This document shows, one piece after another, positions 5,921-32,343 of a stretch of 64,000 bases of DNA. The notes beneath the pieces were generated by a model. The model did no database searches, had not been told where the DNA came from, and worked only from the letters and a program-made list of their open reading frames with translations. The translations under genes were made by a program, and so were the position numbers. How positions within the stretch are numbered: position 1 is the stretch's first letter; every line of letters begins with the position of its first letter. The stretch is from Lactobacillus huangpiensis (GTDB lineage: Bacteria > Bacillota > Bacilli > Lactobacillales > Lactobacillaceae), in contig NZ_BPPA01000009.1 in the NCBI RefSeq assembly GCF_019972815.1, forward strand, positions 36,202-100,201, written 5' to 3'.

Positions 5921-6850
5921 TTAATTCATCCTTTCTGTTACTGAAATTTGTGGTAATAAATTATTTAAAGAAAAATCTGTGAGACCAGTGCGACTAGCAG
6001 TATCGCTTCCTGCAGCTACAGCTATTTTGAGAGCCTCACTAATAGGTTTTTTCTTTTCCAAAAAGGCAATGAAGGTACCAAGCATTGTATCCCCTGCACA
6101 AGCTGAATTAACCACTTGTATTTTAGGAGCATTGGCAAACAGGATATGCCGTTCATTAATAAAAGCTGCTCCAGCAGCACCTAAAGAAACCAACACATTT
6201 TGGCAACCTAGTTTAACTAGCTTTTGAGCAAAAGCGACTGTTTTCTCGTCTGTCATTTTACCCTCATAATTAAAGAAAGCTGCCAGTTCTGCGTCATTGG
6301 GTTTAAGTAAAAACGGTCGATATTTTAAAGTATCGATTACTTCAAGGTAACTACTGTCAACTACGAATTTTGCCCCCTGTTTTTGAACTAGCTCAGCCAG
6401 TTGTACTAAATAGTGAGGTTTAATTCCCCGAGAAAAACTGCCGGAAACAACTACCATATCATCCTTAGTTAGCGTGCTTTCAAGATAATCCAAAAATTGG
6501 TTTTGTTTTTCCAAGCTAACTTCTGGACCCGGGTTAACTTGTTTGTACTCTGTTTTTTCATCTAAAACGTCTGTAAAAACATTAACTCTGGTTGGATCTT
6601 TTACCTTCAAGAAATTGGTTTGAATCCCCTTTTCCTTTAAACCTGAAATGACATAATCTAATGTAAAGCCTCCACCAATACCAGTAGCTACACTATCAAT
6701 GCCTAATTTCTTTAAAACGAACGAAACATTGACCCCTTTACCATTAGGTTGCAATTCAAATTTTTCAGTTCTATTAACTACCTTTGGTTCCAGCTTTTTG
6801 GTTACAATTACCAAATCAATCGCTGGATTCAACGTTATTGTGTAAATCAA
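5921..6850 (-). CDS. lacC: PfkB-family sugar-phosphate kinase (tagatose-6-phosphate kinase / 1-phosphofructokinase)
   Basis: I start it at TTG 6850, which has GGGGAG six bases upstream and gives the family-typical opening IYTITLNPAIDLVI and 309 residues. The longer frame adds an unlikely N-terminus. PfkB signatures are present: NGKGVNVS near the N-terminus and SACAGDTMLGTF near the C-terminus, with the catalytic base D254. The family phosphorylates fructose-1-P, tagatose-6-P or tagatose-1-P to the bisphosphate. It is the only such kinase in a window that also holds lacA, lacB and lacD, so it probably completes the tagatose-6-phosphate pathway. Its operon partner is a fructose-type PTS, so a 1-phosphate substrate is equally possible. 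The gene symbol is by context. Confidence 0.75.
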   Translation of the reverse strand: MIYTITLNPAIDLVIVTKKLEPKVVNRTEKFELQPNGKGVNVSFVLKKLGIDSVATGIGGGFTLDYVISGLKEKGIQTNFLKVKDPTRVNVFTDVLDEKTEYKQVNPGPEVSLEKQNQFLDYLESTLTKDDMVVVSGSFSRGIKPHYLVQLAELVQKQGAKFVVDSSYLEVIDTLKYRPFLLKPNDAELAAFFNYEGKMTDEKTVAFAQKLVKLGCQNVLVSLGAAGAAFINERHILFANAPKIQVVNSACAGDTMLGTFIAFLEKKKPISEALKIAVAAGSDTASRTGLTDFSLNNLLPQISVTERMN

Positions 6851-6920
6851 AGATTTCTCCCCTTTTTTTGCCTTTTGCATTATTATTATAGAAGTTAAAA
6901 AGTGTAACGTTTTTCCAAAT

Positions 6921-6934
6921 TGATAGCGTTTACT
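6921..6934. promoter_or_regulatory. Divergent promoter/operator region with candidate cre site
   Basis: TGATAGCGTTTACT matches the CcpA cre consensus TGWAANCGNTNWCA at 12 of 14 positions. It directly abuts a TATAAT at 6934-6939 for the RpiR gene. An imperfect dyad, GTAACG at 6904-6909 with CGTTTAC at 6927-6933, may be the RpiR operator. A second TATAAT for the kinase-PTS operon lies on the minus strand near 6885-6890. Confidence 0.45.
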
Positions 6935-6972
6935 ATAATTAATGGGAAAATATTTACAAAAGGAGCACATAT

Positions 6973-7734
6973 ATGCCAAATAAAGAACTTTCCTCAGCAG
7001 AATTACATCTCTGGAATATCGTAGAAAATAATCCCCAAAAGATTGCTAATATGTCGATAGTAAAACTAAGTCAATTTGCAAATGTCTCGACTGCAACAAT
7101 TGTGCGCACCATGCAAAAAATGGGTTACAGTGGTTACACCTCTTACCGCGAATCTTTGAAACTAAAAAGCAATTCAAATTCTACTTTTAGTGTGTTAAAT
7201 GATGCTGACGATAAAATTAAAAGCGTGATTACTAAAAACGAAATTGAAATGAATAATACGCTGCATAACCTAAGTTACAGCACAATTGAAGACAGCATAT
7301 CGCTGACTAAACAAGCTAAAATCGTTTTTATCTTTGCTCGTGGATTATCTGAATCAATTGCTCACGAAATGATGGTTAAATTACAATTAACTGGAAAATA
7401 TTGCGAATTTCATTCAGACCCAAATATTATTAAGACGATTGCCTGTAAGATCAAGAAAGATTCATTAGTAATTTTTATTACTCTTAACGGAGAAACTGAG
7501 GAATTGGTTACCGCAGCTAAAGAGCTAAATAAAAATGAAGTCCCAATTTTGACTTTTACTACTAATTCTTCAGGCAGCATTTTGCCTTTTTCAACTTTAT
7601 CCTTTTTAGGCTACAAATCTAAAACCAATTATTTTCCCGAGTATGAGGTTAGATCGCGACTACCACTACAAATAATAACCCGCATCTTTTGTGATGCTTA
7701 TTCAGTTAGAACCGATTTTTACAAGAGCAAATAA
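6973..7734 (+). CDS. RpiR-family transcriptional regulator
   Basis: The 253-residue protein has an N-terminal helix-turn-helix of the RpiR type (MSIVKLSQFANVSTATIVRT, about residues 27-46). A C-terminal SIS sugar-phosphate-binding domain at about residues 105-240 has IVFIFARGLSESIA and LVIFITLNGETEE. It is divergent from the kinase-PTS operon with 122 bp between starts, so that operon is its likely target. The effector is probably a sugar phosphate of that pathway. Start ATG has AAAGGAG nine bases upstream. The gene ends at a strong terminator shared with the converging lacD gene. Confidence 0.9.
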   Translation: MPNKELSSAELHLWNIVENNPQKIANMSIVKLSQFANVSTATIVRTMQKMGYSGYTSYRESLKLKSNSNSTFSVLNDADDKIKSVITKNEIEMNNTLHNLSYSTIEDSISLTKQAKIVFIFARGLSESIAHEMMVKLQLTGKYCEFHSDPNIIKTIACKIKKDSLVIFITLNGETEELVTAAKELNKNEVPILTFTTNSSGSILPFSTLSFLGYKSKTNYFPEYEVRSRLPLQIITRIFCDAYSVRTDFYKSK

Positions 7735-7735
7735 A

Positions 7736-7773
7736 AAGCCTTCTATACTAATCAAAGTATAGAAAGCTTTTTT
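7736..7773. terminator. Bidirectional terminator between rpiR and lacD
   Basis: The arms AAGCCTTCTATAC and GTATAGAAAGCTTT enclose a seven-base loop. The T-run is on the plus strand and an A-run precedes the stem, so it can end both converging genes. Confidence 0.85.
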
Positions 7774-7800: not shown

Positions 7801-8796
7801 TTATTCAGCAACTTCTAGCTTATCACGCCAAGATTTAGCTCCCTTCAGAGCCTCATTCAAGTTTTCAATATTTTCTTTGCCGTGAGTAGCTAACCATTTT
7901 CTACCGGCTGTTTCACTTTCAGCAGCAAATGGCTTGATAGCCGGTTTCCAGGTAGCACGACCACAGAGAACACCGTTAAAGTCAGCCCCTGCTTCTTCAG
8001 CCATTTTAATTTCAGCAATAAATTCTTCACTGGTTACACCAGCAGATAAGAAAATATAAGGCAAATCAGTTATCTCAGACTGCTTTTTAAGCAGATCCTT
8101 AGCTTCTTCTTGAGTGTAAACAACGTTGTTGTCACCATTAAAACCTTCAACAAATTTAATGTTAAACGGAATTTCAACTTTAAGTACAGTTACATCATAT
8201 TCAGGCTTTGAAAATTCTTTCATTGTCTTCAAAACCTTATCAGCTTTAACTTTCGCAAATTCTTCACTCTTAGCGTCAGCGATATTTGCGTCATAAGTCA
8301 AAACTTCCAAAAAGAATGGTAATTCATTAGCTTTAGCTTCTGCACCAACTCTTTCAACGAAAGCTTGCTTTTTATCATTAATTTCTTGACCTTCATCAGG
8401 ATCATAGTAAACCAAAAACTTAATGGCATCTCCGCCTTCATTTTTAATTCTTAATCCAGACTGATTAGCAATTAAGTCAGGCATTCTGCCAGGTTCAGTT
8501 GTATCATACCCGGTTTTTTCATAAGAAAGTAATAATCCGCAATTTTTATCTCTCACTTTTGTTGCTGGCAAACCATATTCTGGGTCAGTCAAAATCGATG
8601 AAGCATAAGGAGTCAACTCACTGGAAACTGCTTTTTTAAAATCAACAATAGTTGTTTCATCAGCAGGTTTATTAGCGGCCTCTGCTAACATCTTTTTCAA
8701 AGAGCCACGTTGATCGATTGCCAAAGCACTGATTATACCATCAGTTGTTGACAAGTTTGCCATATGTTTGGCAACTGCTGCAGAAATTGTTTTCAT
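7801..8796 (-). CDS. lacD: Tagatose 1,6-bisphosphate aldolase, class I
   Basis: This 331-residue enzyme splits tagatose-1,6-bisphosphate into dihydroxyacetone phosphate and glyceraldehyde-3-phosphate. It has the LacD opening with GIISALAIDQRGSLKKML, the stretch RIKNEGGDAIKFLVYYDPDE with the lysine region of class I aldolases, VTVLKVEIPFN, and PYIFLSAGV near the C-terminus. Length fits the family (about 325-330). Start ATG has AAAGGAG eight bases upstream. It stands alone, between the RpiR terminator and the GH31 gene, with its own promoter. It is therefore separated from lacAB (22 kb away) and from the kinase gene. LacD of some streptococci also regulates; nothing here shows that. Confidence 0.95.
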   Translation of the reverse strand: MKTISAAVAKHMANLSTTDGIISALAIDQRGSLKKMLAEAANKPADETTIVDFKKAVSSELTPYASSILTDPEYGLPATKVRDKNCGLLLSYEKTGYDTTEPGRMPDLIANQSGLRIKNEGGDAIKFLVYYDPDEGQEINDKKQAFVERVGAEAKANELPFFLEVLTYDANIADAKSEEFAKVKADKVLKTMKEFSKPEYDVTVLKVEIPFNIKFVEGFNGDNNVVYTQEEAKDLLKKQSEITDLPYIFLSAGVTSEEFIAEIKMAEEAGADFNGVLCGRATWKPAIKPFAAESETAGRKWLATHGKENIENLNEALKGAKSWRDKLEVAE

Positions 8797-8940: not shown

Positions 8941-11793
8941 TTACTTCTGCTCAACTTTGTCAGTTTTTTTAGTTTTACAGTTAAATCTTGTTCCCCAAGG
9001 AGATGCCTTTAAGTCCTTAACTGCTCTTACCTCAAAAGTATGTTCAGATTCAGACTTCAGGCTGCTTAAAGTATAACTTGCTTTTTTAATATTAGTATAT
9101 AAGACATCGTCAATTTTGAGCTGATAACTATCGCAATCAGATACAGGTTGCCATGATACCGTGATGGAATCTGCAGTAGTTTTTTCATCATCTTGTGCTA
9201 AATTAGTCGGAGTTGTCAAAGAATCATCTTCTGCTAGCAAACTGTTAACCGGTTTTGTACTTATATCGATACCACCGATTTTAATAGTTATTTCGTTTTG
9301 ACTAGTATTAATTTGACTTATTTTTATTCTCAAAAATGTCTGATTTAAATCTGTACTAAATTCTTTTAGATAAGGGTTAACTAAGTAGTTTTGATCAAAG
9401 AAATAGCAATTTTCTTGATTTTGAAATTCAGCTATACTATTTACTTCAGTCAAATTAATTTCTTGATTTCCTACTAAAGCTTTGATCGCTTCCGGTGCCT
9501 TTTTAGTTCTGATATCAACTTCTGTTGCTTTTTCCGGATCAAAACCAGCATATGTACCTTTGGTTTTGTCAATTTTGATAGTCAGGTCTGAGTTCAGCAA
9601 ATGACTGCTTACTTTGGTTTGAGCATAATCGCCCTGCTGGTACTTAGCAGAAAAGCCATCATCTTCATAAACTGTAAAGCTACTGTTTTCACTTGGATAA
9701 ACTACAAATTGCCGCTGCTTTTTCAGATCAAGGTATTCCTTAGGTGTGTTAGTTGCTGGTGCTACAGGAACGATTGCTCCTGCTTTAACAAATACAGGCA
9801 ATTTCCATAATGGTGCATCAAAGTTATTAATTACTTGACCGCCACGATATTCTTGACCAGTAAAGTAATCAATCCAGATTTGCTTTTCATCAGGCAAGTA
9901 AATTTCGTTTCTGATATCATTTCCCACTTCATCACTGGCAGTATCTTGATAAATCGGAGCTACTAAGAAGTTCTCTCCCCACAAATATTGGTATCTGACC
10001 AAATTAGTATAAAATTGAGGTACATCAGGATATTCCAAGAACATTGCACGCACCATAGGTTTACTGGTAAAGGTTGCTTGCGCTGCGATGCTATAAATAT
10101 ATGGCATCATCATTGACTTTTGTTTGAGGTATGCACGGTTAAGTTTATTTGTAATACCACCAAATACAAATGGGTTTTTAGGATTCTTGCCCCAGCCATC
10201 CATATTTAATTGAATTGGGGTGAAAGCTTTCCACTGATAATCTCTAGTGTTAATAATTGGCTTTTGACCTCCAAAAATGCCGTCCATGTCTGACGCAACA
10301 TTAGGCTGCCCTGAAAGTCCTTCGCCGATATAAGTTGGTATTTGGAAGCGGATATATTCCCACTCACCACCTACTTCGTCTCCAGTCCAAACCGTACTGG
10401 TATTTTGAGTTCCTGCCCAGCCATCAACAGTAATAATAAATGGTCGCACTTGATCACCTTTGATTTTGGCAATCATCTTGGCAGTACTTTGAGTGGCATT
10501 TAAGCCGAACGAATAGCCGTGACCAACCCATGCCTCATCAGTCTTAAGTGCAGTGACACCAGCAACGAGTTCTTTTTCAAAATCACGATCATCTGGTTTA
10601 GGATTTTCAGGATCTACTGGGGCAAGATTTTGCTGGGTCCAAAGTCCTACTTGAACACCTTTGCTATTAGCATATTTAACAAACTCAGCTAAATTCTTAA
10701 GGTTGCCTGCTAATGTATCAGTTTGACCATATCCAGCTCCATAACCATCATTAGGCAGAAACCAGCCTAAAGGCATATCATTTTGCAAATATTGTTCTAG
10801 CATGGCTCTTGCACTAAATTGATAAGAAATACCACCGTGTTCGCCATTTAACGTTTCTCTGATTGACTTTGGTTTTAATTCTGCCGGTAAATCTTTTGGC
10901 TGATATTCACGATAATACTTGCCATCAGGATATTTGATAGCTCCTTTTTCATCAGATTTGACCTCAACCCAATAGTCACGGTTATATGCATTTAGATGAG
11001 CTTCATAAAAACCGAAAACTGGTGTTAGGGCAGGCCTGCCAGTCAGCTTATGATATGCATTAATCAATTCATATGCTGAGTCGGCAAAGAAATAAATAGC
11101 ATCAAAACGATTTTCTTCATGAACAGTCGTAATCTCGTCGTTCGAATTGCTATTAAAGTCATAATGTCCGGGCTTAAAAGTATTGCGAATTGCACCGTAA
11201 CCGGCAGTTGACCAGTAAAAAGGATTAGGTGAAGCTACACCTTGATCAACCCAGTTATTGGTATTAACAATTTCGATTTTTTCTCCTGCTAGTGTGAAAC
11301 GGCCGTTTTGGGTACCTCCACCAAAGTAATTACTATTATGATCAATTAAAGTTTGAACAGTTGCCGAATTTGTCAGTTCAATCGGCCGTGCCTCTTTTAA
11401 TATTAATCTACCTTTTTTTGTAACACTCATAGTAGCGGCATTTTTAACTAAATTGATTTCAACTGCACCTGTATCAATTTGCCAGCCTTTTTTGGTTACA
11501 TGGAGATTGGTAGCATTCATTCCTTTGGCGCTATATATATCTTTCAAGAAAATTTGAGCATGCAATCCTTTTTCTGATTGTTCTGGCTCTTGAAATTTCT
11601 GGCTTGGATCAATATATAACCTGAATGTTTTTGAATCAAGTATGTAGAGGCGACCAGTCAATCCATGTGCATAGTGGATCTCAAAATAACCAGATTGTCT
11701 AATTACTTCAGTGATGTGTTGCAATTTCAAATTTTCAGATTCTACATTTTTTTGTGTAACTCTTGCTTTATTAATTTTTCTCTCCTCCTTCAT
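8941..11793 (-). CDS. GH31 glycosidase without signal peptide, C-terminal Fn3 domain
   Basis: This 950-residue protein has a GH31 core at about residues 40-760 and an Fn3 domain at about 855-940. Nucleophile candidate D419 lies in ALKTDEAWVG and acid/base candidate D472 in WTGDEVGGEW. The core is closely paralogous to the secreted enzyme next door; both share NYFGGGTQNGRF and NTNNWVDQGVASPNPFYW. GH31 proteins with Fn3, CBM32 and dockerin parts in enterococci and bacteroides include alpha-N-acetylgalactosaminidases, so that activity is a reasonable guess, but alpha-glucosidase or another retaining alpha-glycosidase is not excluded. There is no signal peptide, so the enzyme should be cytosolic, which is odd for an Fn3-bearing protein. 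The AAGGAGGAGAG box lies inside the frame just after the ATG, leaving the true start in doubt. Confidence 0.85.
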   Translation of the reverse strand: MKEERKINKARVTQKNVESENLKLQHITEVIRQSGYFEIHYAHGLTGRLYILDSKTFRLYIDPSQKFQEPEQSEKGLHAQIFLKDIYSAKGMNATNLHVTKKGWQIDTGAVEINLVKNAATMSVTKKGRLILKEARPIELTNSATVQTLIDHNSNYFGGGTQNGRFTLAGEKIEIVNTNNWVDQGVASPNPFYWSTAGYGAIRNTFKPGHYDFNSNSNDEITTVHEENRFDAIYFFADSAYELINAYHKLTGRPALTPVFGFYEAHLNAYNRDYWVEVKSDEKGAIKYPDGKYYREYQPKDLPAELKPKSIRETLNGEHGGISYQFSARAMLEQYLQNDMPLGWFLPNDGYGAGYGQTDTLAGNLKNLAEFVKYANSKGVQVGLWTQQNLAPVDPENPKPDDRDFEKELVAGVTALKTDEAWVGHGYSFGLNATQSTAKMIAKIKGDQVRPFIITVDGWAGTQNTSTVWTGDEVGGEWEYIRFQIPTYIGEGLSGQPNVASDMDGIFGGQKPIINTRDYQWKAFTPIQLNMDGWGKNPKNPFVFGGITNKLNRAYLKQKSMMMPYIYSIAAQATFTSKPMVRAMFLEYPDVPQFYTNLVRYQYLWGENFLVAPIYQDTASDEVGNDIRNEIYLPDEKQIWIDYFTGQEYRGGQVINNFDAPLWKLPVFVKAGAIVPVAPATNTPKEYLDLKKQRQFVVYPSENSSFTVYEDDGFSAKYQQGDYAQTKVSSHLLNSDLTIKIDKTKGTYAGFDPEKATEVDIRTKKAPEAIKALVGNQEINLTEVNSIAEFQNQENCYFFDQNYLVNPYLKEFSTDLNQTFLRIKISQINTSQNEITIKIGGIDISTKPVNSLLAEDDSLTTPTNLAQDDEKTTADSITVSWQPVSDCDSYQLKIDDVLYTNIKKASYTLSSLKSESEHTFEVRAVKDLKASPWGTRFNCKTKKTDKVEQK

Positions 11794-11924: not shown

Positions 11925-11953
11925 CCCCATAATTAGTGATTCTAATTATGGGG
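11925..11953 (-). terminator. Terminator of the secreted GH31 gene
   Basis: Perfect 12-bp arms CCCCATAATTAG and CTAATTATGGGG surround a five-base loop. On the minus strand a TTTTATTTTT run follows. Confidence 0.85.
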
Positions 11954-12018: not shown

Positions 12019-15000
12019 TTATATAGAGTAGAAATTAACTTTCTTTACATATTTGTTTTTACCTATTGTGTAGTACTTCTTAAATCCTATCTTTATTGCA
12101 CTACCATAAGTTTCTACTTTCTTACCCTTTTTCAAAACTTTATGTCCTACTCTCTTTCCCTTCCTATTGTATATGTATGAATTATGACGAAGTTTGCGAT
12201 CCAATCCATCAATATTGCCAGCTGCTATAAAGCGACTATTTCCTAAATCATAGTATTCTTTATTATTAATCACTTTTTTACCAAGGACCATTACCTTAGA
12301 GCCAGCTTTTAGAACACTATCATCTTTTCTTTGACTGTTTTCATCATAAATATATGCATTATGCATCAAGACTTTACTTGTCTTAAATTTATTATTGTCT
12401 GTGTTTTCTTTATCCTTGTCCTTATTTGGTTCTGTCTGATCCGATGTATTTGCTGTTGGAGAAGTGATATTGCTATTTGTGATATTACCTGTATTGCCAG
12501 AGTTACCTGTATCATTATGCTGATTCTCAGCTTTTTCTTTAACTTTAATGCTAATTGCTTCAGTATCTTCCGGCTCATATTCCAAAGACCCCTTGTTCAC
12601 CAGCATTTGATCTTTAAGACCAAAAGTAATAGTTTTCCCGTTCAATGGTTTTAACGCAGTAAACTTAATTGTGGCAACAGTTCCATAACCATTAAGCAGT
12701 GGTGCTTCTCCTCTATTACCATAAATTACAAATATATCCGTGCTATTATCTGAATGAGTCTTATTCTTAGAGAAACTTGTCATACTTCCTGTTAGGCTTC
12801 CATTTTGAATGCCTTCAAATTTTAATTCCTGCGAACTATATGGCAGTCTAGCAGACAGAGTATTGACATTTTTCAAATTACTTGCACTAATAGTTACAGT
12901 GACTGTATCACCTTCATTATAGCTGTTTTTATCTGTAGAAATAGTAAGCTTACCTGAAGGGGTAACTTTGGCACTTTCATCAATATTTGCTGGTGGATTT
13001 CCTAATTGAGTCAAAACATAATTGATATCAAACGCATCAATCATTCCGTTTTGATTAAGATCACCATTTTCAACATAGCCATCAAAATCATTATCTTTAC
13101 CACGCGTCTCTCCCGCATAATTGGACAAGGAAGTTACATCATTATCATCTATTACGCCATCATTATTAATATCTCCAGGAAGTACAGCTTTAGTACCATC
13201 TTTTTTGTAAAGCAAAAATTCTTGACCAGAGACAAATTTATTATATGTGCTGTTTTGTGGGATTATAAATTTTACCCAATAAGCCTTTGTACCAGGTGCA
13301 AATTTTATTTCCTTTTTATCTTTATCATAAGACCAGTTTGAACCACTTCCTGCTTCTTTCCAATGAATGCCATCAACGCTAGTTTGAATATTCATGGCCT
13401 TTATCATGCCGTTTTTACCACCATCATCTCTTGGTACATAAACAAAACGGTCAAGATCAGTAATTCCATCCAAATGAGTTGTAATAGTCATTGGTGTAGC
13501 ATCTTGTTCTGGACCCGATGTAAACCAATTGGTATGTGCTTGACTAGTTAGATCGCCGTCAAATAAATTTTCACCAGGTGTACCAGATTGCCAGATATTA
13601 GTACCTTTAATATTTGACTCTGTATTGACATAAGTAACTTTCACAGCATTTTTAAGTTCATCTTCATTTGACTTAAATGTTTGAATATCACTCCAAGGAG
13701 AAACAGCTGTTTCAGTTACAGTCTGTACTTGGAATGTATGCTGTGAATTTGGCTTTAGGTCAGTTAATATAAATTCCGGTTTCTTAATGTTAGTATACAA
13801 AACATTATCAACTTTTAAGTTATAACTTTGACTTCCGTCAACTGGAGTCCATGATATAGCAATAGTATTTTGTGTAGTCTTATCAGAATCTTGTTTAATA
13901 TCCGAAGGGACTTTTACTTCCGAGCTTTCATCAGGAATTTTATTTACAGGATTTGCATCTTCACTGATACCGTCAAGTGACACTACAATTCCATTTTGAG
14001 TAACATCAGTTTTATCAAGTTTAATACGTAAAAAGCTTTGTTTAAGACCTTCACCCATATCTTTCAAATATGAATTTGTTAAATAAGAATTATCTAGGAA
14101 ATAAACATTAGTAGATTTCTGATAATCCTCTAGGTCACTTGCTTGCCGTAGTTTGACATCCTTTGAACCTATCTTAACAGTAATAGTAGTAGGGTTAGAC
14201 TTAGTTCTGATATCAAATTCTGTAGTCTTATTAGGATTCATACCTTGATAAGTACCCTTTGTAGGATCGACTGTAATTGTCAGCTTAGAGCCATCTAGCG
14301 CAGAATGAATCTGAGTTCGTGTGTATTTTTCATTTTTGTATTGTGCAGAAATTCCGTCATCATCATAAACAGTAAAATTACTATTTCCAGAAGGATAAAT
14401 TTCAAATTCACGTCTATTCTCTTTCAGATTTAGATAATCTTTTGGCGTATTCGTTGCTGGTGCAACTGGAATAATAGCTCCTGCCTTAACAAAAACAGGC
14501 AATTTCCAAATTGGAGCAGCAAAATCATTAAGAACTTGACCACCTTGATATTCTTTCCCAGTATAATAGTCAATCCATATTTGGTTTTTATCAGGTAAAT
14601 ATATTCCATTACGAACATCATTTCCTTTTTCATCACTTGCCGTGTTTTGATAAATCGGCGCAACCAGGAAATTATCACCCCAAAGATATTGATATTTTAC
14701 CAAATTAGTGTAGGCCTCAGGATAATCTGGGTAATCAAGAAACATTGCTCTAACCATTGGCTTGCCAGCAAAAGTTGAATCTGCAGCTATACTATAAATA
14801 TATGGCATTAACATTGATTTTTGTTTCAAGTAAGCTCTATTAATATTAGTAGTATTTTCATCAAATGCAAATGGATTTTTAGGATTATAACCCCAGCCAT
14901 CCATATTTAATTGAATCGGAGTAAATGCTTTCCATTCATATTCCCTAGCGTTAACAATTGGATTTTCACCACCAAAAATGCCATCCATATCTGATGCAGA

Positions 15001-21386: not shown

Positions 21387-21396
21387 TTTTCTCCTC

Positions 21397-21885: not shown

Positions 21886-21926
21886 GTTTTATTCCTCCTT
21901 ATCTTTCAAGGAAATCTAAATATTAC

Positions 21927-21940
21927 ATAAAACGCTTTCA
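21927..21940 (-). promoter_or_regulatory. Candidate cre site before the mannose-class PTS genes
   Basis: TGAAAGCGTTTTAT on the minus strand matches the CcpA consensus at 12 of 14 positions. It lies about 40 bases before the IIB start, so carbon catabolite control of the PTS genes is likely. Confidence 0.55.
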
Positions 21941-21953
21941 CACTTTATGATAA

Positions 21954-21964
21954 GGTACCAACCA
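21954..21964 (-). promoter_or_regulatory. Candidate GntR/HutC-type operator before the PTS genes
   Basis: TGGTTGGTACC on the minus strand matches TGGTTGATACC in front of the GntR gene at 10 of 11 positions. HutC-subfamily regulators bind TGGT-N4-ACCA-like sites. Confidence 0.45.
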
Positions 21965-22048
21965 ATTTTTGTCAACATGTATTTTTATATTTAAAACGGT
22001 TATTATTAAAAACATATTTTTACCTTTAGTACCCATAACAAAAGCACA

Positions 22049-23215: not shown

Positions 23216-23240
23216 TTATTTTTACCTTCCTTTATAATAT

Positions 23241-23957: not shown

Positions 23958-23979
23958 TAATTCCCCCTCCTTATTAAAC

Positions 23980-23991
23980 TGGTTGATACCA
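23980..23991. promoter_or_regulatory. HutC-type operator of the gntR-agaS operon
   Basis: TGGTTGATACCA is a palindrome of the TGGT-N4-ACCA type, 22 bases before the gntR start. A CcpA-like AGAAAGCGTTTCAT lies at 24007-24020. Confidence 0.55.
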
Positions 23992-24115
23992 CTTAAAGTT
24001 TATCAAAGAAAGCGTTTCATTGCAATTTGATTTTTTAGAAAATTCAACTTAATTTCTTTTGATTAAAATTGAATTTATATACACTAGTCAACAATATTAG
24101 CAATTAATGGAACAT

Positions 24116-24148
24116 AAAAAGCATTGGAAAATATTCCAATGCTTTTTT
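24116..24148 (-). terminator. Terminator of the GH35 gene
   Basis: A perfect hairpin with arms AAAAAGCATTGGAA and TTCCAATGCTTTTT around AATA lies 43 bp after the GH35 stop. It also separates GH35 from gntR. Confidence 0.85.
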
Positions 24149-24190
24149 CTTATTCAAAGGCTACTCCTTAAGAATCATTATTTAATGAAC

Positions 24191-27100
24191 TTATTTCCTT
24201 TTGACAAAATTGCTCATCTTAATATACTTGTTAATTCCAATAATATAATATTTTTTATTTCTTATCTGACGAGGAGAGCCAAAAGTCAAAATTTTACAAT
24301 TCTTTTTTAAAACTTTTTTATTTCTTCGTTTGCCCTGCTCATTATAAATATACGCATTATGAATAAGAACTTTTTTACTACCATCAATATTACCCGCGGC
24401 AATATACTTATTGTTATTTATAACATAAAATTTCCTACCTTTAATGGAAATTTTCCCATAAGTCAAAATTACTTTGCCAGAGCGAATCATCTTTACCTTG
24501 GTTTTTTTACCATTTTCATCATACACATATGCATTATGCATAACTTTCTTTTTTACTGCATGCTTCTTATTTTCTACCACAGTTTCGTCAGTTGCAGACT
24601 GATTACTGTTATCCTTACTGTTACTCGTCGGTAAACTAATAATATTTTCGTTACTTGTTTTATGATCAGAATTTTCGTAATTCTTGAAAAGCTCTTGATA
24701 TGTAGGTGACTTTTCAACATTTACAGTATGTGGTGTATTATACGCCCCCTTTGCCTCGAGACTTACTTTACCTAATTTTGCACTTTGAGCATCAAGACTC
24801 CAAACTGCAATTGAAATTTCATTATGCCCTTGTTCATTTAATAAACCTGAAGGCAAATAAAATTCTTGTTGTGGTCCAGCATTATTAATATATTGGCCGT
24901 AAAGCCAGCCGTTAATATATATATATGCTCGATATTTTGCCCCGTTAGGGCCAAAAGTATCATCACTTATTTTTAAAGAAATAGGTACGTCATAATTTTG
25001 GGGAATATTTAGATCAAAATCTGTATTATACCAAGCAACTCCAGGCGAAGATACCTGATCAGGTAAAGTTATTTTCTTCCAAGATGAAGAATCAAACCCG
25101 GGTAAATACCAGCCATGACGTTCACCATAAAGTCCGCCAAGGTTGTAAGATCCTCTAACTGTATCAGTTATATTTTCTCCATTTATATTGCCTTGAAGTT
25201 TCCATGTAACGTCAGCTCCATTTTCCCCTTCTCTTTCTACGCTGGCGTCTATAAGGCCTCTAGCAGTTTTTTGGGTATCCTTATTATTGCCGTCTTCATC
25301 GTGACCCATATTTGCAACTAAAACAGAAATTATATTGTCTTTGCCCTTTTCAAGCCATGAAGAGTCAATCGTAAAATCTTTTTGCTTACTTTCGTCTTTT
25401 TCCATTTCACAGCTACCCATAAAATGACCATTAAGCCAAACTGAGTATGCACCATAATTGCCCGTAATTGCATTTAATTTAATAGTTTTTTCTTTGCCAT
25501 CTGAATTAAAGTGACCCCGATACCAGACATTACCATGGTGAAAGCCATAATCATCTGAAAATAAAACATGTTTACCTGTAAAATTAGTTATACTATTAGA
25601 ACTGTCTTTGTTGGCAGTCTGCCAATTTGAGTCGTCAAATTTAGGATCAGCTTCGAAAGTCGCATCATGATATCGCCAATTATTCAGTTCTGGTAAAACA
25701 ACTTTATCTTGATCGATTCCAGGAATGGATCCAACTTCCCATTCAGAGCTACTTTTCGTATTAAGTGGTTGGCCATTCCAAGTTATTTCATTGATATCTT
25801 TAGGACAAAAAACTTTCATTTCAACCGCTTTTGAACTATCACCACTCAAATTCAGCGTTTTATTTTCCGATTTGGCAGTTCTAACTAAATAAGGTCCATC
25901 AATTAAAACAGTTCCTTGATCAGTTTTTTTCTCCCATAAGTTATTCATTTGATCATAAGATCCCATGATCAAACGTAATGATTTTTCATTGCTGGTTATT
26001 TGAACATTTGCGAGACCATCAAATTGATTAGATAAACTTAAAGTTTTATTATTATCATCCCATTTTACATCTACTTTTCCTGTCTTAACTTTCACATCTG
26101 GCTCTGAATCATATTTAAGTACTGTTTTATTTTGATCACCATTGCCACTATATACTACAGCCACATCATCACTACCATTAGAAAAGTTAGTAAAAATTTC
26201 ATTAGTAGAATATACTAAATGCTGTTTACCAAAGTTATAATTGGCAATTATAACTTTAGAATTTTGTCCATTTATTCTTATTGGCTCTGTAGTATCAATT
26301 TCTCCTGTTTTTATTGGCAAATTATAAGTATCATCATTGTTAGAATTGGTTTTATTATGCCGGACAAAATAAAATTTTGTTTTTGTATCTGGATTTTCTC
26401 TTTGGATCAAATAAAATGTATTGTCTGAAGATGTATTTTCAGAAACCAGATCAGTTTTTGCAATTGGTTTAACACTTTGTAGCATTAATCCAATTTTCTT
26501 TTGTTGAGCTGTTTTATCATCTAACTGCCGATATTCATTAATTGCCGCGCCATAATCATATGAAGTATAACCGCCAGGGAAGGGCAAGTAGCCCCAAGAT
26601 GTCCCCCCATAAGTCATATAGGAACTTATTATGGTACCACCTTCACCTATAATATGCTTATTAATAATATTTTCTGCAGCCGTGCCACGTTGTTCACGCC
26701 AATAACTGTAACCCTTTCCTGCCCAGGGATCAAACCAGCCATTTCCTAATTCAGCTAAAAAGATTGGTGATTTAATTCCCCAGCCTTTAGTATGTGGATC
26801 CTCAAAGGTATTTGGTAGTGCTCCAACATTACCTAAACCCGGATACCGATCAAAAGCATACATATCTGGTGCTCCTTTACCACTAGCCCATGTACCCTGC
26901 GGTCCACTTTTGTCATTATGAAATGTTGGAACGGTTATGCCATCTTTTTTGACTTTATTTTTCAAGTCTTCCATGTATTGTGAATCACGTTTCCAACCAG
27001 TATATTCATTTTCAATTTGATACAATATAACATTGCCACCATTAGTAATTTGATGTTTAGCAATAATGGGATCTATATGATCTAGCCATTCATTATAGCT

Positions 27101-27598
27101 TTGGGTATAGTCAGCATCTGAAGATCTGGCTCTTCCTTTTTGTGTTAGCAGCCACCCTGGAAAGCCTCCTGCGTCTGTTTCAGCATTAATATAAGGTCCT
27201 GGACGAGCTATAACATATAATCCAACATCTTGTGCCATTTTTAATAGCTTATCAACATTTCGAATCCCGGAAAAATCATATACACCCTGTTTTGGTGAAT
27301 GAAAACCCCAATTAAAGTAAATTGTTACTGCATTGAACCCTTCTGATTTCATTTTTTCCAGGACATCAAGCCATAGAGATTGACTTGGCAAACGCCAATA
27401 TTCAAATTCTCCTGAGTATATTGGAGTCCTTACTCCATTAATCATCAGTGAATACTTATCAAAAGTAACATTTGCCTTTTGACCCATTTCGGGCAAATCG
27501 TTTTCTGCAGCCAAAACAGTATTCTTTGTTGAAACACTCACAAGAAACAGTGTCACTGAGGCAGCTATTAGATTAATAAGCTTTTTTGCTTTTTTCAT
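24191..27598 (-). CDS. Secreted GH35 beta-galactosidase with C-terminal SLAP repeats
   Basis: This 1135-residue surface enzyme has a signal peptide at residues 1-30 (cut after VLA). The GH35 barrel at about 45-370 has proton donor E198 in YQIENEY and nucleophile E283 in FLAELGNGWFD. Long beta-domains follow at about 380-990, including two jelly-roll parts with VWYRGHF and VSSPGVAWYNTDFD. Two SLAP wall-binding repeats sit at about 1013-1135 (HNAYVYDENGKK, HNAYIYNEQGKR). The RPGPYINAETDAGGFPGW stretch and the length resemble the large fungal-type GH35 enzymes more than the 600-residue BgaC of pneumococcus. It should release terminal beta-galactose outside the cell. The galactitol-class PTS and LacAB next to it would take up the galactose. 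Confidence 0.92.
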   Translation of the reverse strand: MKKAKKLINLIAASVTLFLVSVSTKNTVLAAENDLPEMGQKANVTFDKYSLMINGVRTPIYSGEFEYWRLPSQSLWLDVLEKMKSEGFNAVTIYFNWGFHSPKQGVYDFSGIRNVDKLLKMAQDVGLYVIARPGPYINAETDAGGFPGWLLTQKGRARSSDADYTQSYNEWLDHIDPIIAKHQITNGGNVILYQIENEYTGWKRDSQYMEDLKNKVKKDGITVPTFHNDKSGPQGTWASGKGAPDMYAFDRYPGLGNVGALPNTFEDPHTKGWGIKSPIFLAELGNGWFDPWAGKGYSYWREQRGTAAENIINKHIIGEGGTIISSYMTYGGTSWGYLPFPGGYTSYDYGAAINEYRQLDDKTAQQKKIGLMLQSVKPIAKTDLVSENTSSDNTFYLIQRENPDTKTKFYFVRHNKTNSNNDDTYNLPIKTGEIDTTEPIRINGQNSKVIIANYNFGKQHLVYSTNEIFTNFSNGSDDVAVVYSGNGDQNKTVLKYDSEPDVKVKTGKVDVKWDDNNKTLSLSNQFDGLANVQITSNEKSLRLIMGSYDQMNNLWEKKTDQGTVLIDGPYLVRTAKSENKTLNLSGDSSKAVEMKVFCPKDINEITWNGQPLNTKSSSEWEVGSIPGIDQDKVVLPELNNWRYHDATFEADPKFDDSNWQTANKDSSNSITNFTGKHVLFSDDYGFHHGNVWYRGHFNSDGKEKTIKLNAITGNYGAYSVWLNGHFMGSCEMEKDESKQKDFTIDSSWLEKGKDNIISVLVANMGHDEDGNNKDTQKTARGLIDASVEREGENGADVTWKLQGNINGENITDTVRGSYNLGGLYGERHGWYLPGFDSSSWKKITLPDQVSSPGVAWYNTDFDLNIPQNYDVPISLKISDDTFGPNGAKYRAYIYINGWLYGQYINNAGPQQEFYLPSGLLNEQGHNEISIAVWSLDAQSAKLGKVSLEAKGAYNTPHTVNVEKSPTYQELFKNYENSDHKTSNENIISLPTSNSKDNSNQSATDETVVENKKHAVKKKVMHNAYVYDENGKKTKVKMIRSGKVILTYGKISIKGRKFYVINNNKYIAAGNIDGSKKVLIHNAYIYNEQGKRRNKKVLKKNCKILTFGSPRQIRNKKYYIIGINKYIKMSNFVKRK

Positions 27599-27956: not shown

Positions 27957-29375
27957 TTATTTAGCCTTTTTAGCTGCGGCATATTCTGCATTTCTCCTCT
28001 TCATTTGCTTTGCGTACCAAATGAATAAAAGAAGATATAAAGCTAAAGCAATTAAGGCATAAACAATAAACATTCCTTGTTGTTTCCAAGCATTTCCTAC
28101 TAAGTAAGCTAAGAATTTTTCAACTGGACCTTCCATAGTAGTGTCTGAAACCAATGTATGTGCAGGAATGGCGGCACCTACTGAGTGGGCCATGTTAGTA
28201 ACAAATGGACCAACCATAGTACCAGCCCAAAGGAAGATAGGTAATTCAATTGTTCCAATAATAATCATCCGAATAATTTTACCACGAGTAACAACTAGCA
28301 AAGCAGGAGTAACACCCATAGCGATGATACCACCTAAAGGCATTAATCTGTTACCTGGCAAAACCATTGCTTCAAGCATCATAATTGGAGCCAATACATT
28401 TGCGGCAGCCCAAATTTCAGAACGACCAGCTAAGAATGGCCAGTCAAGTCCAATATTAAAGGTACGACCGGAGAACTTCTTAGTGGCAAAATCAGCAATA
28501 CCCTGAGACAAAGGCTCAACGGAAGCGATGAACCACGAACCAATTACAGAGAATAATTCAATACATGAACCACCAATAAATGATAGTGTGAACATATCTT
28601 TCCACCCCTGCTCAGTTGCAAAGTTATTACCTGCTAGCAAGGAAACGAACACACCAAGGTAAACACCAATAGCAAATCTACTGCCCCAGAAACCGATTTT
28701 TTCGTTCAATTTAGTAGAGTCAAAGTCAAATTTGTCTAGCCAAGGCAGACATTTGTCAAAGAACTTATTGAATACCATTATGATAGGATTCATCATATAG
28801 TTCATGTGCGTAGTAGTCATTGGGTTGCCTTCAGGGGCATCTAATAAGTCATTAAATGTTGGCTTCATTAAGTCGGAGTTAATGATTTTCATTGTACCAA
28901 TGAAAAGTACCAATAATGTTGATAACCAAAGAGGGGCACCAACATAAACACAGAATAAGCCATCAAATGCCAGATGCCAAACATCAAAGATATCTACGTC
29001 AAGAGTGTTTGTCTTGTTTAATACCAACAGAACAACATTCAAAATAATTAAAACTAACAGATAAAACAAGGTATATGGTGAACCCCAAGTTATAGTAGCA
29101 AGTGGTGCCCAACCCATATCTTGCATATCCATGTGAATGCCAGTGTGCTTAACAAATTGCAGCATTGGTTTTTGAAATGCTGTAGTCAACATATTCATAA
29201 CATTACCTATCGCTGTGATAGCAATAGCTAATTTCAAGCCACCTTCTAAGGCCTTAGTAAACTTGACACGAAAGAGTACTGCAATTAATGTTAAAACAAT
29301 TAACATTATTGTGGCAGCACCCATATCAATTAAAGGTTTAAAAAGTGAGTTAGCGAAACTAATTATCCCATTCAT
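27957..29375 (-). CDS. gatC: PTS galactitol-class EIIC
   Basis: The 472-residue integral membrane permease has about ten helices and the GatC pattern, including the MNYMMNPIIMVFNKF stretch and GLDWPFLAGRSEIWAAANVL. The end is a basic cytosolic tail. It is preceded by the matching IIB (20-bp gap) and IIA genes. In streptococci and lactobacilli, such gat-class systems next to lacAB bring in galactose as galactose-6-phosphate. That is the likely substrate here, because lacA, lacB and lacR are directly upstream and a secreted beta-galactosidase is downstream. Galactitol itself is less likely, as no dehydrogenase is present. Confidence 0.9.
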   Translation of the reverse strand: MNGIISFANSLFKPLIDMGAATIMLIVLTLIAVLFRVKFTKALEGGLKLAIAITAIGNVMNMLTTAFQKPMLQFVKHTGIHMDMQDMGWAPLATITWGSPYTLFYLLVLIILNVVLLVLNKTNTLDVDIFDVWHLAFDGLFCVYVGAPLWLSTLLVLFIGTMKIINSDLMKPTFNDLLDAPEGNPMTTTHMNYMMNPIIMVFNKFFDKCLPWLDKFDFDSTKLNEKIGFWGSRFAIGVYLGVFVSLLAGNNFATEQGWKDMFTLSFIGGSCIELFSVIGSWFIASVEPLSQGIADFATKKFSGRTFNIGLDWPFLAGRSEIWAAANVLAPIMMLEAMVLPGNRLMPLGGIIAMGVTPALLVVTRGKIIRMIIIGTIELPIFLWAGTMVGPFVTNMAHSVGAAIPAHTLVSDTTMEGPVEKFLAYLVGNAWKQQGMFIVYALIALALYLLLFIWYAKQMKRRNAEYAAAKKAK

Positions 29376-29395
29376 TTTTATTTCCTCTTGAAATC

Positions 29396-29710
29396 TTATT
29401 CAGCATTAATTTCTTTAACAACTTTTTCTACATTGTCATAAACTGGTTTAGCCATAGCTGGTATACGATACAAAATTGCTCCTGCATCAATTAACGGAAT
29501 TTTTGGTTTAAAGGAAAGATCAGTTTTGGCAATTGTTAAATAGCCATCATAATGTGATAAAAGATCTTCATTGACATCTTTAATCATATAGGCATCAACT
29601 TTAACGTTATAACCACGCTTTCTCATTTCTTCTTCAACTGCATCCTTAATTTGGTGGGATGAGTTTACCCCAGCACCACATGCAGCTATAAATTTTACTT
29701 CTCTGCTCAT
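29396..29710 (-). CDS. gatB: PTS galactitol-class EIIB
   Basis: The 104-residue cytosolic IIB has phosphoryl cysteine C11 in FIAACGAGVNSSHQ, the P-loop-like motif of the lactose/galactitol IIB families. It lies between IIA (11-bp gap) and IIC (20-bp gap). It transfers phosphate from IIA to the incoming sugar at IIC. Confidence 0.88.
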   Translation of the reverse strand: MSREVKFIAACGAGVNSSHQIKDAVEEEMRKRGYNVKVDAYMIKDVNEDLLSHYDGYLTIAKTDLSFKPKIPLIDAGAILYRIPAMAKPVYDNVEKVVKEINAE

Positions 29711-29721
29711 AAAAAGCCCTC

Positions 29722-30210
29722 CTACTGTTGACTAAAATTCTTACTTAAGAACTGATAAATTTTATCAGTTTTGGTAAGATTGAATAATGTTTGTAACTTT
29801 GAAACTGGTGTGAGTCTAAGAAAGTCCATAATTTGTGCTAAAATGTTTGCTTGTCCTTCTGGATTATTATTCAAGATCATAAACAGAAATTTTACTGGCA
29901 AACTTTGATCAGGTACAATCATATTTTTAAAGGGTACTGGTGCTTTTAAAGCAACAGGTACTATCAAACATGTATTAACAAACTCACCTTCAGTATGCGG
30001 TACAGCAATATTTGGCAATTCCTTTGCAATTGGCGAAGTATCTATGCCAGTCGGATATTGTTGTTCACGCTGGCTAATTCCATTGAAAAAGCCGTCTTTG
30101 ACCAAATTAAGAGCAAGTAATTTATCTGAAACTTCTTTAAAAATTGTGGTTGGATCCGACGCATCACTTACAAATACTGCATTCGCAGAGAACAAGTTAT
30201 TTTCTTTCAC
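29722..30210 (-). CDS. gatA: PTS galactitol-class (fructose/mannitol-superfamily) EIIA
   Basis: The 162-residue IIA has active histidine H72 in LPNIAVPHTEGEF. Start is GTG at 30210 with AAGGAGG ten bases upstream. It is first in the gatA-gatB-gatC-small membrane gene operon. Upstream are TTTTGTTTG-like boxes and a cre-like site, so LacR and CcpA control is likely. Confidence 0.88.
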   Translation of the reverse strand: MKENNLFSANAVFVSDASDPTTIFKEVSDKLLALNLVKDGFFNGISQREQQYPTGIDTSPIAKELPNIAVPHTEGEFVNTCLIVPVALKAPVPFKNMIVPDQSLPVKFLFMILNNNPEGQANILAQIMDFLRLTPVSKLQTLFNLTKTDKIYQFLSKNFSQQ

Positions 30211-30470
30211 AAATTAGGCCTCCTTAACAATAGACAAGTTTTTCGCTTTTGTTTGAATATGTTAGTTTTTGTTCGCTTGTCTATTGCTATTATATTTAAT
30301 GGTAAAGAAAAATGCAAACGCTTTTTTAAAAAATATGATAAAAAACAAACAGATTATCTATTTTTAACCAGTTTAAATGGACTATTTGACTTCAGGTAGT
30401 TATTCGAGCGATGTTTTGTCATAATCATCAATTTATTTCTCATAATTTTTTCCCTTATTTTCAAGCAAGA
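30211..30470. promoter_or_regulatory. gatABC promoter region with LacR-like boxes and cre-like site
   Basis: On the plus strand, TTTTGTTTGA at 30247-30256 and TTTTTGTTCG at 30266-30275 are near-repeats. A similar TTTTTGTTTG lies before lacR at 32408-32417, which suggests a shared DeoR/LacR operator. TGCAAACGCTTTTT at 30313-30326 is a weak CcpA-type site. The rest of the gap shows no gene. Confidence 0.4.
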
Positions 30471-30500
30471 AAAAGCCATGACCTTCGAATCATGGCTTTA
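30471..30500 (-). terminator. Terminator of the lacR-lacA-lacB genes
   Basis: AAAAGCCATGA and TCATGGCTTTA form the stem around CCTTCGAA. On the minus strand a T-run follows. It lies 46 bp after lacB. Confidence 0.8.
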
Positions 30501-30545
30501 TGTGCGATTAAATTATAATTCTATATCTTTATACTATTTAACATA

Positions 30546-31121
30546 TTAGTCGTGGTATATGCCTTCAGCCCACTTCTTATTTTCTTCATCAAAGAAGTGT
30601 ACGTTATCCTTTTGGTCTGGATTTGGTTTGGCAATACCATCAATTTTGGCAATTAAATTTTGTCTTTCCGGAGTAGACTCATATTTTGCATTTAAGAATG
30701 AGTCGACAATGTCGAAAATAAAGTCACGTCCTAAAACTATACCACCAAAGCCTAAAACATTGGCATTCAATTCACGTCGAGCATATTCAGCTTGAGCAAC
30801 ATCACCAACCATAGCTGCACGAATTCCCTCATTTTTATCTGCAGCAGTTGAGATACCGATACCAGTACCACAAAGGACAATACCCAAATCGGCACGACCA
30901 TCGGCAACATCTTCAGCAACACGTTTACCGTAAATTGGATAATGGGTTCTGGTATTATCATGAGTACCTTCATCAATGACCTGATATCCCTCTTCTTTTA
31001 AATGATCAGAAATAGCCATTTTGACAGAAGTAACGATATGATCATTTCCTAAAGCAATGACCATATGCTTATCATTTTTAGGATCAACAAATTCTGGCTG
31101 TGGTCTATCATTATCTAACAT
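30546..31121 (-). CDS. lacB: Galactose-6-phosphate isomerase subunit B
   Basis: The 191-residue subunit works with LacA to turn galactose-6-phosphate into tagatose-6-phosphate. It has the RpiB/LacB signature: ALGNDHIV near residue 23, [20 protein letters not shown] at about 81-100, and [12 protein letters not shown]. Family members are about 170 residues; here about 19 extra residues precede the core. Start ATG has AAGGGGGGC upstream. The cysteine in LCGTG is the usual catalytic residue. It lies 13 bp after lacA. Confidence 0.93.
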
Positions 31122-31134
31122 TACTAAGCCCCCC

Positions 31135-31563
31135 TTAAATCATTTCTTCGAGCATATTCAAACGCACTTGATGGCGACCGCCAGCATATTCAGTATCCAA
31201 ATAATGTTGCACGATTGAATAAGCCAGTTTTTCACCTACAATACCGCTACCTAAAGCAATAGCTTTTGCACCATTGTGCATAGCAGTCATATGTGCAGTT
31301 CTTTCTTCATTAACATTTGCGGTAACCATGCCTTTAACCTTATTTGACGCCATGGCAGACCCTACGCCGTATTCGTCAAACATAATGGCTTTTTTAATGC
31401 CATTGTCTAATACTTCATGAGTTACCTTTAAACTAGATTCAACAAAATCCTCAGCGGGTTCCGGAGTAACATCCAAAACATCATAGTGATGTGCCTTCAG
31501 GTAATCTTTTACTTTTTCTTTTAAGGTAAAACCTGCCTCGTCACTACCAATGACAACCTTCAT
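31135..31563 (-). CDS. lacA: Galactose-6-phosphate isomerase subunit A
   Basis: I start at ATG 31563, which has AGGAG eight bases upstream and gives the usual 142 residues; the frame to 31581 would add six residues without a site. It has the RpiB/LacA fold pattern with [16 protein letters not shown] at the start, [20 protein letters not shown], and [15 protein letters not shown]. It forms a heteromer with LacB. The gene is between lacR (24-bp gap) and lacB (13-bp gap), one transcript. Confidence 0.92.
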
Positions 31564-31587
31564 AGTCAAATCTCCTCTCAAACAAAA

Positions 31588-32343
31588 CTATTTATAAATA
31601 GTCGTTAATTGACTGTAATGCTTTTCCAACTCGGGCTCAATTCCCCGATTAGTAATTAAACCATCCACGTTACGCAAATCATAAAATTGGTGAAAATCAC
31701 TATGATCCAATTTAGTATAATCAGCCGCCACAAATTTTATTTGTGAATGATCTAATCCAATACCTTCGGTTTGACCCTCCTCTAAGTTAGCAGTTGTCAA
31801 GGAAGTATCTTTAATGCCATTAACACCAACAAAACCCACAGAAAATGACATAGTTTTCAGTTCATTCTTGGCCAAAGCACCTACAAAAGCACCACTAATT
31901 CTTCGGTATGAGCCACCAACCATAATTAAATCGTAATCATTCATATTATTTTTGGCAGCTTCAAATACAGGCAATGAATTAGTAACAATCCTAAGATGCT
32001 TAACTTTTAAATTAGCAACCAACAGTTCTAAAGTTGTTCCAGGACCAACGTAAATTGAATCATTTTCATGAATCAAATTACAAGCCCTTTTTGCTACTTC
32101 ATATTTTTCTTTACTATGAATTTCACGTTTTTGCTGATAACTTTTTTCAGTCCTGATTTGATCAGACAATAACTGTGCACCACCGTGAATACGCAAAATT
32201 TTATTTGCTTTATGCAGTTCATTAAGATCTCGTCTAATTGTCATGTCAGACACTTTTAAAGCCTGTGCCAATTCATCAACTGTGACAAATTTCTGGGTTT
32301 TTACTACTTGTAAAATAGTTTTCAGTCTTTCACTTTTTAACAT
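31588..32343 (-). CDS. lacR: DeoR-family repressor (LacR-type)
   Basis: The 251-residue protein has an N-terminal DeoR helix-turn-helix (VTVDELAQALKVSDMTIRRD, residues 19-38). The C-terminal sugar-phosphate sensor has IVTNSLPVFEAA and IMVGGSYRR. LacR proteins respond to tagatose-6-phosphate or galactose-6-phosphate. It heads the lacR-lacA-lacB operon and has TTTTTGTTTG-type boxes in its leader that recur before gatA, so it probably controls both units. A separate lacC-like gene 25 kb away may be outside its control. Confidence 0.85.
   Translation of the reverse strand: MLKSERLKTILQVVKTQKFVTVDELAQALKVSDMTIRRDLNELHKANKILRIHGGAQLLSDQIRTEKSYQQKREIHSKEKYEVAKRACNLIHENDSIYVGPGTTLELLVANLKVKHLRIVTNSLPVFEAAKNNMNDYDLIMVGGSYRRISGAFVGALAKNELKTMSFSVGFVGVNGIKDTSLTTANLEEGQTEGIGLDHSQIKFVAADYTKLDHSDFHQFYDLRNVDGLITNRGIEPELEKHYSQLTTIYK

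Follow-up and report, generated by a model that had tools for sequence, protein, structure and literature searches.

A putative core-1 O-glycan and galacto-N-biose utilisation locus in Lactobacillus huangpiensis, with a protein of predicted GH42-like fold in the place of GnbG

At the pneumococcal bgaC locus, genes for a GntR regulator, a sugar phosphotransferase system (PTS), AgaS and an enzyme of glycoside hydrolase family 35 (GH35) stand together. The gnb operon of Lacticaseibacillus casei is described as dedicated to galacto-N-biose and N-acetylgalactosamine (GalNAc; PMC6109692, PMC7366668; these, like all papers cited here, are represented by extracts); the same extracts report that Lactobacillus gasseri and L. 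johnsonii lack GnbG homologues and can use both lacto-N-biose and galacto-N-biose (PMC7366668), that undiscovered pathways have been invoked, and that GnbG favours 6-phosphates (PMC6109692). Here we describe a locus in a 64,000-nucleotide window (the whole stretch of DNA analysed) from L. huangpiensis, whose genome comprises 1.90 Mb in 20 contigs. GntR, PTS, AgaS and GH35 genes are likewise grouped in it, and it shares with the gnb operon a mannose-class PTS, an AgaS-type enzyme and the presence of NagA in the genome. It differs from that operon in lacking a GnbG-type GH35, having instead a 672-amino-acid protein that we term X672; in having NagA on another contig; and in the addition of an exported GH31 and a fungal-type GH35, here ‘GH31s’ and ‘GH35s’.

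Our best explanation, which we hold with moderate confidence, is that the locus forms a system for utilisation of core-1 O-glycans (Gal-β-1,3-GalNAc-α-Ser/Thr, where Gal is galactose) and galacto-N-biose, with X672 predicted to act in GnbG’s stead. The wall-bound GH35 would take off galactose and the wall-bound GH31 would then take the remaining GalNAc; the Gnb-type PTS would import both GalNAc and the intact disaccharide, and X672 would split the latter in the cytoplasm. Going by what is known of the families concerned, NagA would convert GalNAc-6-phosphate to galactosamine-6-phosphate, which AgaS would turn into tagatose-6-phosphate; a galactitol-class PTS would yield galactose-6-phosphate, which LacAB would also bring to tagatose-6-phosphate; and a kinase with LacD would take this on to triose phosphates. 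X672 would replace GnbG and be the enzyme still sought in L. gasseri for galacto-N-biose and lacto-N-biose.

The operon beside X672 (19196-23957, minus strand) encodes a GntR/UTRA regulator (23241-23957; PF00392, PF07702), an AgaS-like galactosamine-6-phosphate isomerase/deaminase (22049-23215), for which TIGR02815 is the top family at 424.6 bits but below its NCBIfam cut-off of 529.2, and the mannose-class PTS components IIB (21397-21885; PF03830, 147.8 bits), IIC (20463-21386; PF03609, 196 bits), IID (19658-20521; PF03613, 299.6 bits) and IIA (19196-19597; PF03610). GntR, AgaS and a Gnb-type PTS are found together here as in the gnb operon, and neither NagA nor a GnbG-type GH35 is among them; support for the proposal comes from the PTS itself, which belongs to a type found elsewhere with a BgaC/GnbG-type GH35 and agaS.

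X672 (17119-19137, plus strand) is proposed, from its structure model, fold matches and operon context, to be a cytoplasmic (phospho-)β-1,3-galactosidase. It matches no Pfam or NCBIfam family, and not the GH42 family of Pfam even at an E-value of 5. Its model (predicted local distance difference test, pLDDT, 93.8) nevertheless matches GH42 in Foldseek at E 2.9e-22, with the predicted barrel, middle and β-sandwich domains aligning full length to GH42 β-galactosidases, from which it differs in sequence (13% identity) and in the residues after strand 4. Among residues that may correspond to the GH42 Glu pair at the ends of strands 4 and 7, E143 is conserved in 75 and E299 in 73 of 78 sequences, and D144, D145 and E297 in all 78. 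GH112 galacto-N-biose phosphorylase matched at E 1.7e-7 with a poor first model (pLDDT 63.7) and is absent among the 50 matches listed for the good one, which still leaves room for it. In the open-licence literature, where a nameless protein is hard to search for, we found nothing that says what X672 proteins do or that reports O-glycan use by bee-gut (‘Firm-5’) lactobacilli.

The distribution of X672 ties it both to this PTS and to GH31 proteins of the class found here, which we label GH31_18 on the strength of sequence similarity to EfNag31A of Enterococcus faecalis. Of 75 Lactobacillus genomes, 18 contain a GH31_18-class protein with no less than 56% identity (split in G006 into two abutting matches with a stop), carriers apparently including L. 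xylocopicola and the strains sp. ESL0677, ESL0701, ESL0785 and ESL0791. X672 occurs in 32 of the 75, and in 17 of the 18 GH31_18 genomes (the exception being G049) as against 15 of the 57 others (Fisher p 2.6e-7, uncorrected for ancestry). Among the 17 other mapped GH31_18 Lactobacillus genomes, it directly adjoins the GH31_18 gene in 11, lies elsewhere in the mapped strip in one (G053) and falls outside the strip in five (G048, G049, G051, G054, G055). In five genomes from two other genera (G207, G257, G264, G363, G379), X672 sits inside operons of gntR, manB-C-D-A, agaS and nagA, that of G264 at a contig end; G162 has two copies, one adjoining manB-C-D-A and the other a BgaC-type GH35. Two of the 32 Lactobacillus copies (G023, G071) are interrupted by several stop codons, which suggests gene loss in some lineages.

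AgaS is found in 192 of 395 searched genomes of the order, from which 40 AgaS loci were fetched (39 top-scoring ones outside Lactobacillus and the X672 carriers, plus G426; five of the 40 strips are under 10 kb). Counting as Gnb-type any IID that scores above 250 bits against that of the window, such a component is present in 14 of the 40, and a BgaC/GnbG-type GH35 in 13 of these 14 versus none of the remaining 26. Across 79 mapped strips, the 39 neighbourhoods with a Gnb-type IID hold the GH35 in 13 cases, X672 in 18, both in none and neither in eight; this alternation is suggestive rather than statistical, because the rows are related, some were selected for X672 or GH31, and one genome is counted twice. 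Four further strips (L057, L095, L096, L098) have X672 without a Gnb-type IID. When 27 X672 carriers drawn from the 38 known were tested (the other 11, all Lactobacillus, being left out), one had a BgaC-type GH35 (G162), four had only the fungal type and 22 had none.

The same gene content leads to L. gasseri, a common species of the human gut, whose strain ATCC 33323 (G014) has X672 (L098) and, elsewhere, a gntR-agaS-nagA-manB-C-D-A operon (L103), with no GH35 match at E 1e-20. We propose X672 as a candidate for the galacto-N-biose/lacto-N-biose cleavage step in that species; the link is drawn from gene content, since X672 there is away from the PTS operon and no L. johnsonii was identified among the genomes.

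Both GH31 proteins of the locus align end to end with EfNag31A (PDB 6m76, 7f7q, 7f7r), a proven α-N-acetylgalactosaminidase of family GH31. GH31s (12019-16848, minus strand) scores 1016.5 bits to 6m76 over residues 126-1064 and appears from its N-terminus to be exported (signal peptides were assessed from hydropathy alone); it carries FN3, F5/8C (CBM32-like), dockerin and cohesin domains and two SLAP stretches. The second, GH31i (8941-11793, minus strand; 950 amino acids), scores 989.4 bits over residues 26-942. The next solved kinds reach just 124 bits for GH31s and 132 for GH31i, on which account α-GalNAc is favoured and a glucosidase or xylosidase assignment was dropped; this match supports the proposed system. 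The KTD and WTGD aspartates, which we take to be the catalytic residues, are present in both and retained in all 24 aligned rows of the class (22 distinct proteins, one L. kimbladii region being included twice), and chain 7f7r carries Asn at the first of these positions, as a mutant would. One PDB entry for EfNag31A is titled as an LPXTG protein; GH31s is instead SLAP-anchored and has a cohesin, and GH31i lacks an export signal. In the extracts of two papers, α-GalNAc activity is the sole one shown for GH31 subfamily 18 (PMC11790493, PMC13096917).

GH31i has a non-hydrophobic N-terminus, no SLAP domain and a closed upstream frame, and its counterparts at six named loci have like N-termini, one starting later; it looks cytoplasmic, and our guess is that it acts on short imported GalNAc-peptides. 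The dockerin (residues 1224-1278, E 1.7e-5) and cohesin (residues 1302-1408, E 4.3e-8) within the one wall-bound GH31s make a surface cohesin-dockerin assembly conceivable. In another family of the order, the 14th Gnb-type IID strip (L146, G289), which is without the BgaC/GnbG-type GH35, encodes a 1606-residue GH31_18-class protein (901 bits) adjoining lacD, nagA, agaS and the Gnb-type PTS, an independent link of the GH31 class to GalNAc genes. A third GH31 paralogue of the L. huangpiensis genome (C1:281942-284929, or L014:3943-6930; about 31% identical to GH31s) is matched in most of the genus, and in eight of nine mapped rows (L014, L067-L069, L103-L107) adjoins nagA or a gntR-agaS-nagA-PTS operon, L068 being without nagA and agaS. 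In every one of the nine rows, one or both of the aspartates at the catalytic positions are absent or substituted (the alignment being uncertain there), so this paralogue may be a pseudoenzyme or sensor linked to amino-sugar use.

Several points weigh against the system as we propose it. There is no NagA within the locus, such that GalNAc deacetylation would rely on one outside it: four matches were found in the genome, one above cut-off, on another contig (C1:285161) beside the third GH31-like protein. By sequence, only one of the two GH31 enzymes is exported; one subfamily-18 enzyme is described as cleaving nothing but an artificial substrate, and an extract on a B. thetaiotaomicron GH31 reports cleavage of mucin and not of free Tn or blood-group A (PMC11992087). 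The substrate of GH35s is uncertain and, unlike its counterpart at the bgaC locus, the enzyme is exported and fungal in type; and X672 of L. gasseri is not adjacent to its PTS operon. A sequence-only reading of this DNA had already recognised the secreted GH35 with SLAP repeats, the GntR-AgaS-mannose-class PTS operon, the galactitol-class PTS beside lacRAB, and lacD, all of which we recover. It had also spoken of ‘secreted GH31 enzymes’ with SLAP repeats, true of GH31s and not of GH31i, and had likened the locus to bgaC, which suits the grouping of GntR, PTS, AgaS and GH35 and not the kind of GH35. Its account of core-1 O-glycan removal keeps the match of the GH31s to EfNag31A and the type of PTS in its favour, and has the single exported GH31, the fungal-type GH35, a kinase that is not LacC and the distant NagA against it; X672, the most informative gene of the locus, went unmentioned, which tells against that account as given. 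That the bacterium strips core-1 O-glycans is something we infer, and the natural substrate could be a host mucin-type, pollen or microbial glycan.

The downstream genes bring in a rival that we regard as quite possible, if somewhat less probable than not: that the kinase, a fructose-type PTS, RpiR and LacD constitute a pathway through tagatose-1-phosphate, comparable to tagK-tagT of Bacillus licheniformis, which neighbours the GalNAc route and is no part of it. The PfkB kinase (5921-6850, minus strand; its inferred start near 6850 gives 309 amino acids, the length seen in four of six named relatives) had been read as LacC-like; the PfkB assignment stands, and LacC was dropped, the protein scoring 133.9 bits against TIGR01231 (cut-off 409.55) and 322.6 against the 1-phosphofructokinase model TIGR03828 (cut-off 292). 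This fit makes a tagatose-1-phosphate route possible beside or in place of tagatose-6-phosphate use. The kinase gene is spaced by 1 bp from that of a fructose-type PTS IIBCA (4000-5919, minus strand; TIGR01427 331 bits, cut-off 157.55), a candidate tagatose/fructose importer just beyond the span covered by the sequence-only reading; nearby are an RpiR/MurR-family regulator (6973-7734, plus strand; HTH_6 and SIS domains) and LacD, tagatose-1,6-bisphosphate aldolase (7801-8796, minus strand), which passes two of four models (NF009065, 491.2 over 458; NF009498, 474.2 over 184) and not TIGR01232 (402.7 under 432.2) or NF003180. A PTS for tagatose, accompanied by TagK and an aldolase, has been described (PMC10101011, in extract). 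The B. licheniformis tagKTH system resembles the window in pairing a kinase with a PTS of fructose-like type, close to a tagatose-bisphosphate aldolase; the window differs in having LacD rather than GatY, IIA fused to IIBC, and the GalNAc operon adjoining. Six PfkB-type matches were found in the genome, of which two pass the hexose-kinase cut-off: the window kinase, and one in a separate DeoR-kinase-PTS fructose operon on contig 1, the two being 35.5% identical. Set against this rival, no separate LacC was found in the genome, so the window kinase may also serve tagatose-6-phosphate, and in most mapped bee loci that extend that far the gene group comes after the GalNAc operon.

The galactose branch of the proposed system comprises, all on the minus strand at 27957-32343, galactitol-class PTS components IIC, IIB and IIA (gatC, gatB, gatA; 27957-30210; PF03611, PF02302, PF00359), lacB and lacA for the galactose-6-phosphate isomerase subunits (30546-31581), and lacR, a DeoR-family regulator (31588-32343; best NCBIfam score 157.1 bits, below the cut-off of 300). 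LacB and LacA each pass one curated model (NF006381, 276.9 over 234; NF006380, 213.8 over 164) and not TIGR01119, NF009258, TIGR01118 or NF009257. The genome also has galK, and free galactose could therefore feed the Leloir pathway. A search for GH101 gave no signal in any control genome and is uninformative.

A further rival concerns X672 itself. Its fold matches include an α-L-fucosidase at equal TM-score, along with enzymes of several further activities, and 12 of its invariant columns (in 14 sequences) are Asp or Glu, such that the catalytic pair is not fixed from sequence alone. It might instead be a glycosidase of other specificity, α-L-fucosidase-like or β-N-acetylhexosaminidase-like, acting on PTS-imported GalNAc saccharides; we think this unlikely, given that X672 and the β-1,3-galactosidase-type GH35 alternate beside the same PTS.

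Somewhat less likely again is that the exported enzymes serve pollen or plant glycans, with GH35s acting on arabinogalactan or pectic galactan, lacAB and gat burning the galactose, and the GalNAc operon being a separate, older module. Extracts of the literature lend this some credence, in that Firm-5 species are said to answer pollen mainly through carbohydrate genes, those of PTS among them (PMC8456714), and bee-gut GH31 has been read as hemicellulose-related (PMC10128065). GH35s (24191-27598, minus strand), with a signal-peptide-like N-terminus and two SLAP stretches, also finds its best matches among fungal β-galactosidases, being of the five-domain Aspergillus/Trichoderma type (506.6 bits to 5ifp versus 157.2 to the family-35 chain 4e8c), and has its own upstream gap of 358 bp. 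We set aside its assignment to the BgaC/GnbG type, fungal domains being present and its match to a 590-residue BgaC-type protein weak (138.3 bits over 317 residues, where true members score 560-1388). The two GH31 proteins, on the other hand, fit an α-GalNAc enzyme and not glucosidases or xylosidases, and GH35s sits between gatC and gntR. Moreover, of the at least four of 75 Lactobacillus genomes that carry GH35s (G000, G027, G037, G062; in many genomes the best nine candidates per genome were scored), three also have the long GH31 form (p 0.002, uncorrected for ancestry), a co-occurrence that is weak because the open frame of the GH31 in G062 is without a signal peptide.

GalNAc also occurs in wall teichoic acid and exopolysaccharide polymers, which gut neighbours might supply. 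Such a bacterial source is improbable, as the nearest characterised GH31 enzymes act, in the extracts concerned, on peptide-linked or mucin GalNAc (PMC11790493, PMC11992087).

In its layout, the locus runs on the minus strand from lacR-lacA-lacB through gatA-gatB-gatC and GH35s to gntR-agaS-manB-manC-manD-manA, followed by X672 on the plus strand; beyond this come GH31s, GH31i and lacD, again on the minus strand, the plus-strand rpiR, and then the kinase and fructose-type PTS. The gaps of 358 bp (gatC/GH35s), 233 bp (GH35s/gntR) and 270 bp (GH31s/X672), together with a terminator-like hairpin of 12 pairs and a T-rich tail between GH31s and GH31i (11925-11953, minus strand), suggest several transcription units. 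In consensus scans of the region, terminator-like sites numbered 16 against 10.0 expected; promoter-like sites, at 75 against 73.5 expected, were uninformative. The window as a whole has four one-mismatch matches to catabolite (cre) sites, of which that at 6921 is close to a promoter of the locus, and comparison of the intergenic regions for a common operator gave nothing convincing. Outside the locus are an aggregation-promoting factor homologue (2628-3338) and a protein (38641-39393) that matches the PARCEL-repeat barely above cut-off (31.2 bits versus 30).

Among the named database matches of X672 are Lactobacillus sp. wkB10, L. kullabergensis and L. kimbladii; in named genomes, the 950-residue GH31 turned up at six loci (L. 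kimbladii, L. kullabergensis, L. melliventris, L. laiwuensis, sp. W8174 and an uncultured Lactobacillus); by these relatives, the window groups with the bee-gut lactobacilli. Compared with L. kimbladii (L053, L018, L100), GH35s, gntR, the four PTS genes and GH31s are 97.5-100% identical at the nucleotide level, agaS 94.8% and X672 95.8%, versus 87.5-94.2% for GH31i, lacD, rpiR, the kinase and the fructose PTS; gatC is 94.7% identical along 80% of its length. That the block holding both exported enzymes (12019-27598) stands out between its flanks would be explained by a recent exchange among bee Lactobacillus species. The L. kullabergensis locus (L022:3407-7647) has three additional genes, which the window lacks, between that for PTS IIA and X672; judged by eye, they encode a β-glucoside-type PTS, a GH1-like enzyme and an RpiR-like regulator.

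At its widest, our proposal is that X672 founds a new GH family of GH42-like fold, a (phospho-)β-1,3-galactosidase that, next to the Gnb-type PTS of bee-gut lactobacilli and several others, takes over from GnbG and explains lacto-N-biose/galacto-N-biose use by L. gasseri, and that Firm-5 species partly live on core-1 O-glycans of their insect host; this fuller claim we advance tentatively, as a serious possibility rather than an expectation. As far as their extracts go, two papers leave open the enzyme for GnbG-less use of these disaccharides of milk and mucin by L. gasseri and L. johnsonii (PMC6109692, PMC7366668), for which X672 is one nameable gene. Core 1 is described as the dominant O-glycan of Drosophila, and Tn and T antigens as detected in Vespula nests (PMC6272458, in extract); bee-gut lactobacilli may harvest mucin-type glycans and, if this is true, it would correct a survey of the bee gut in which GH31 was labelled as hemicellulose-related (PMC10128065).

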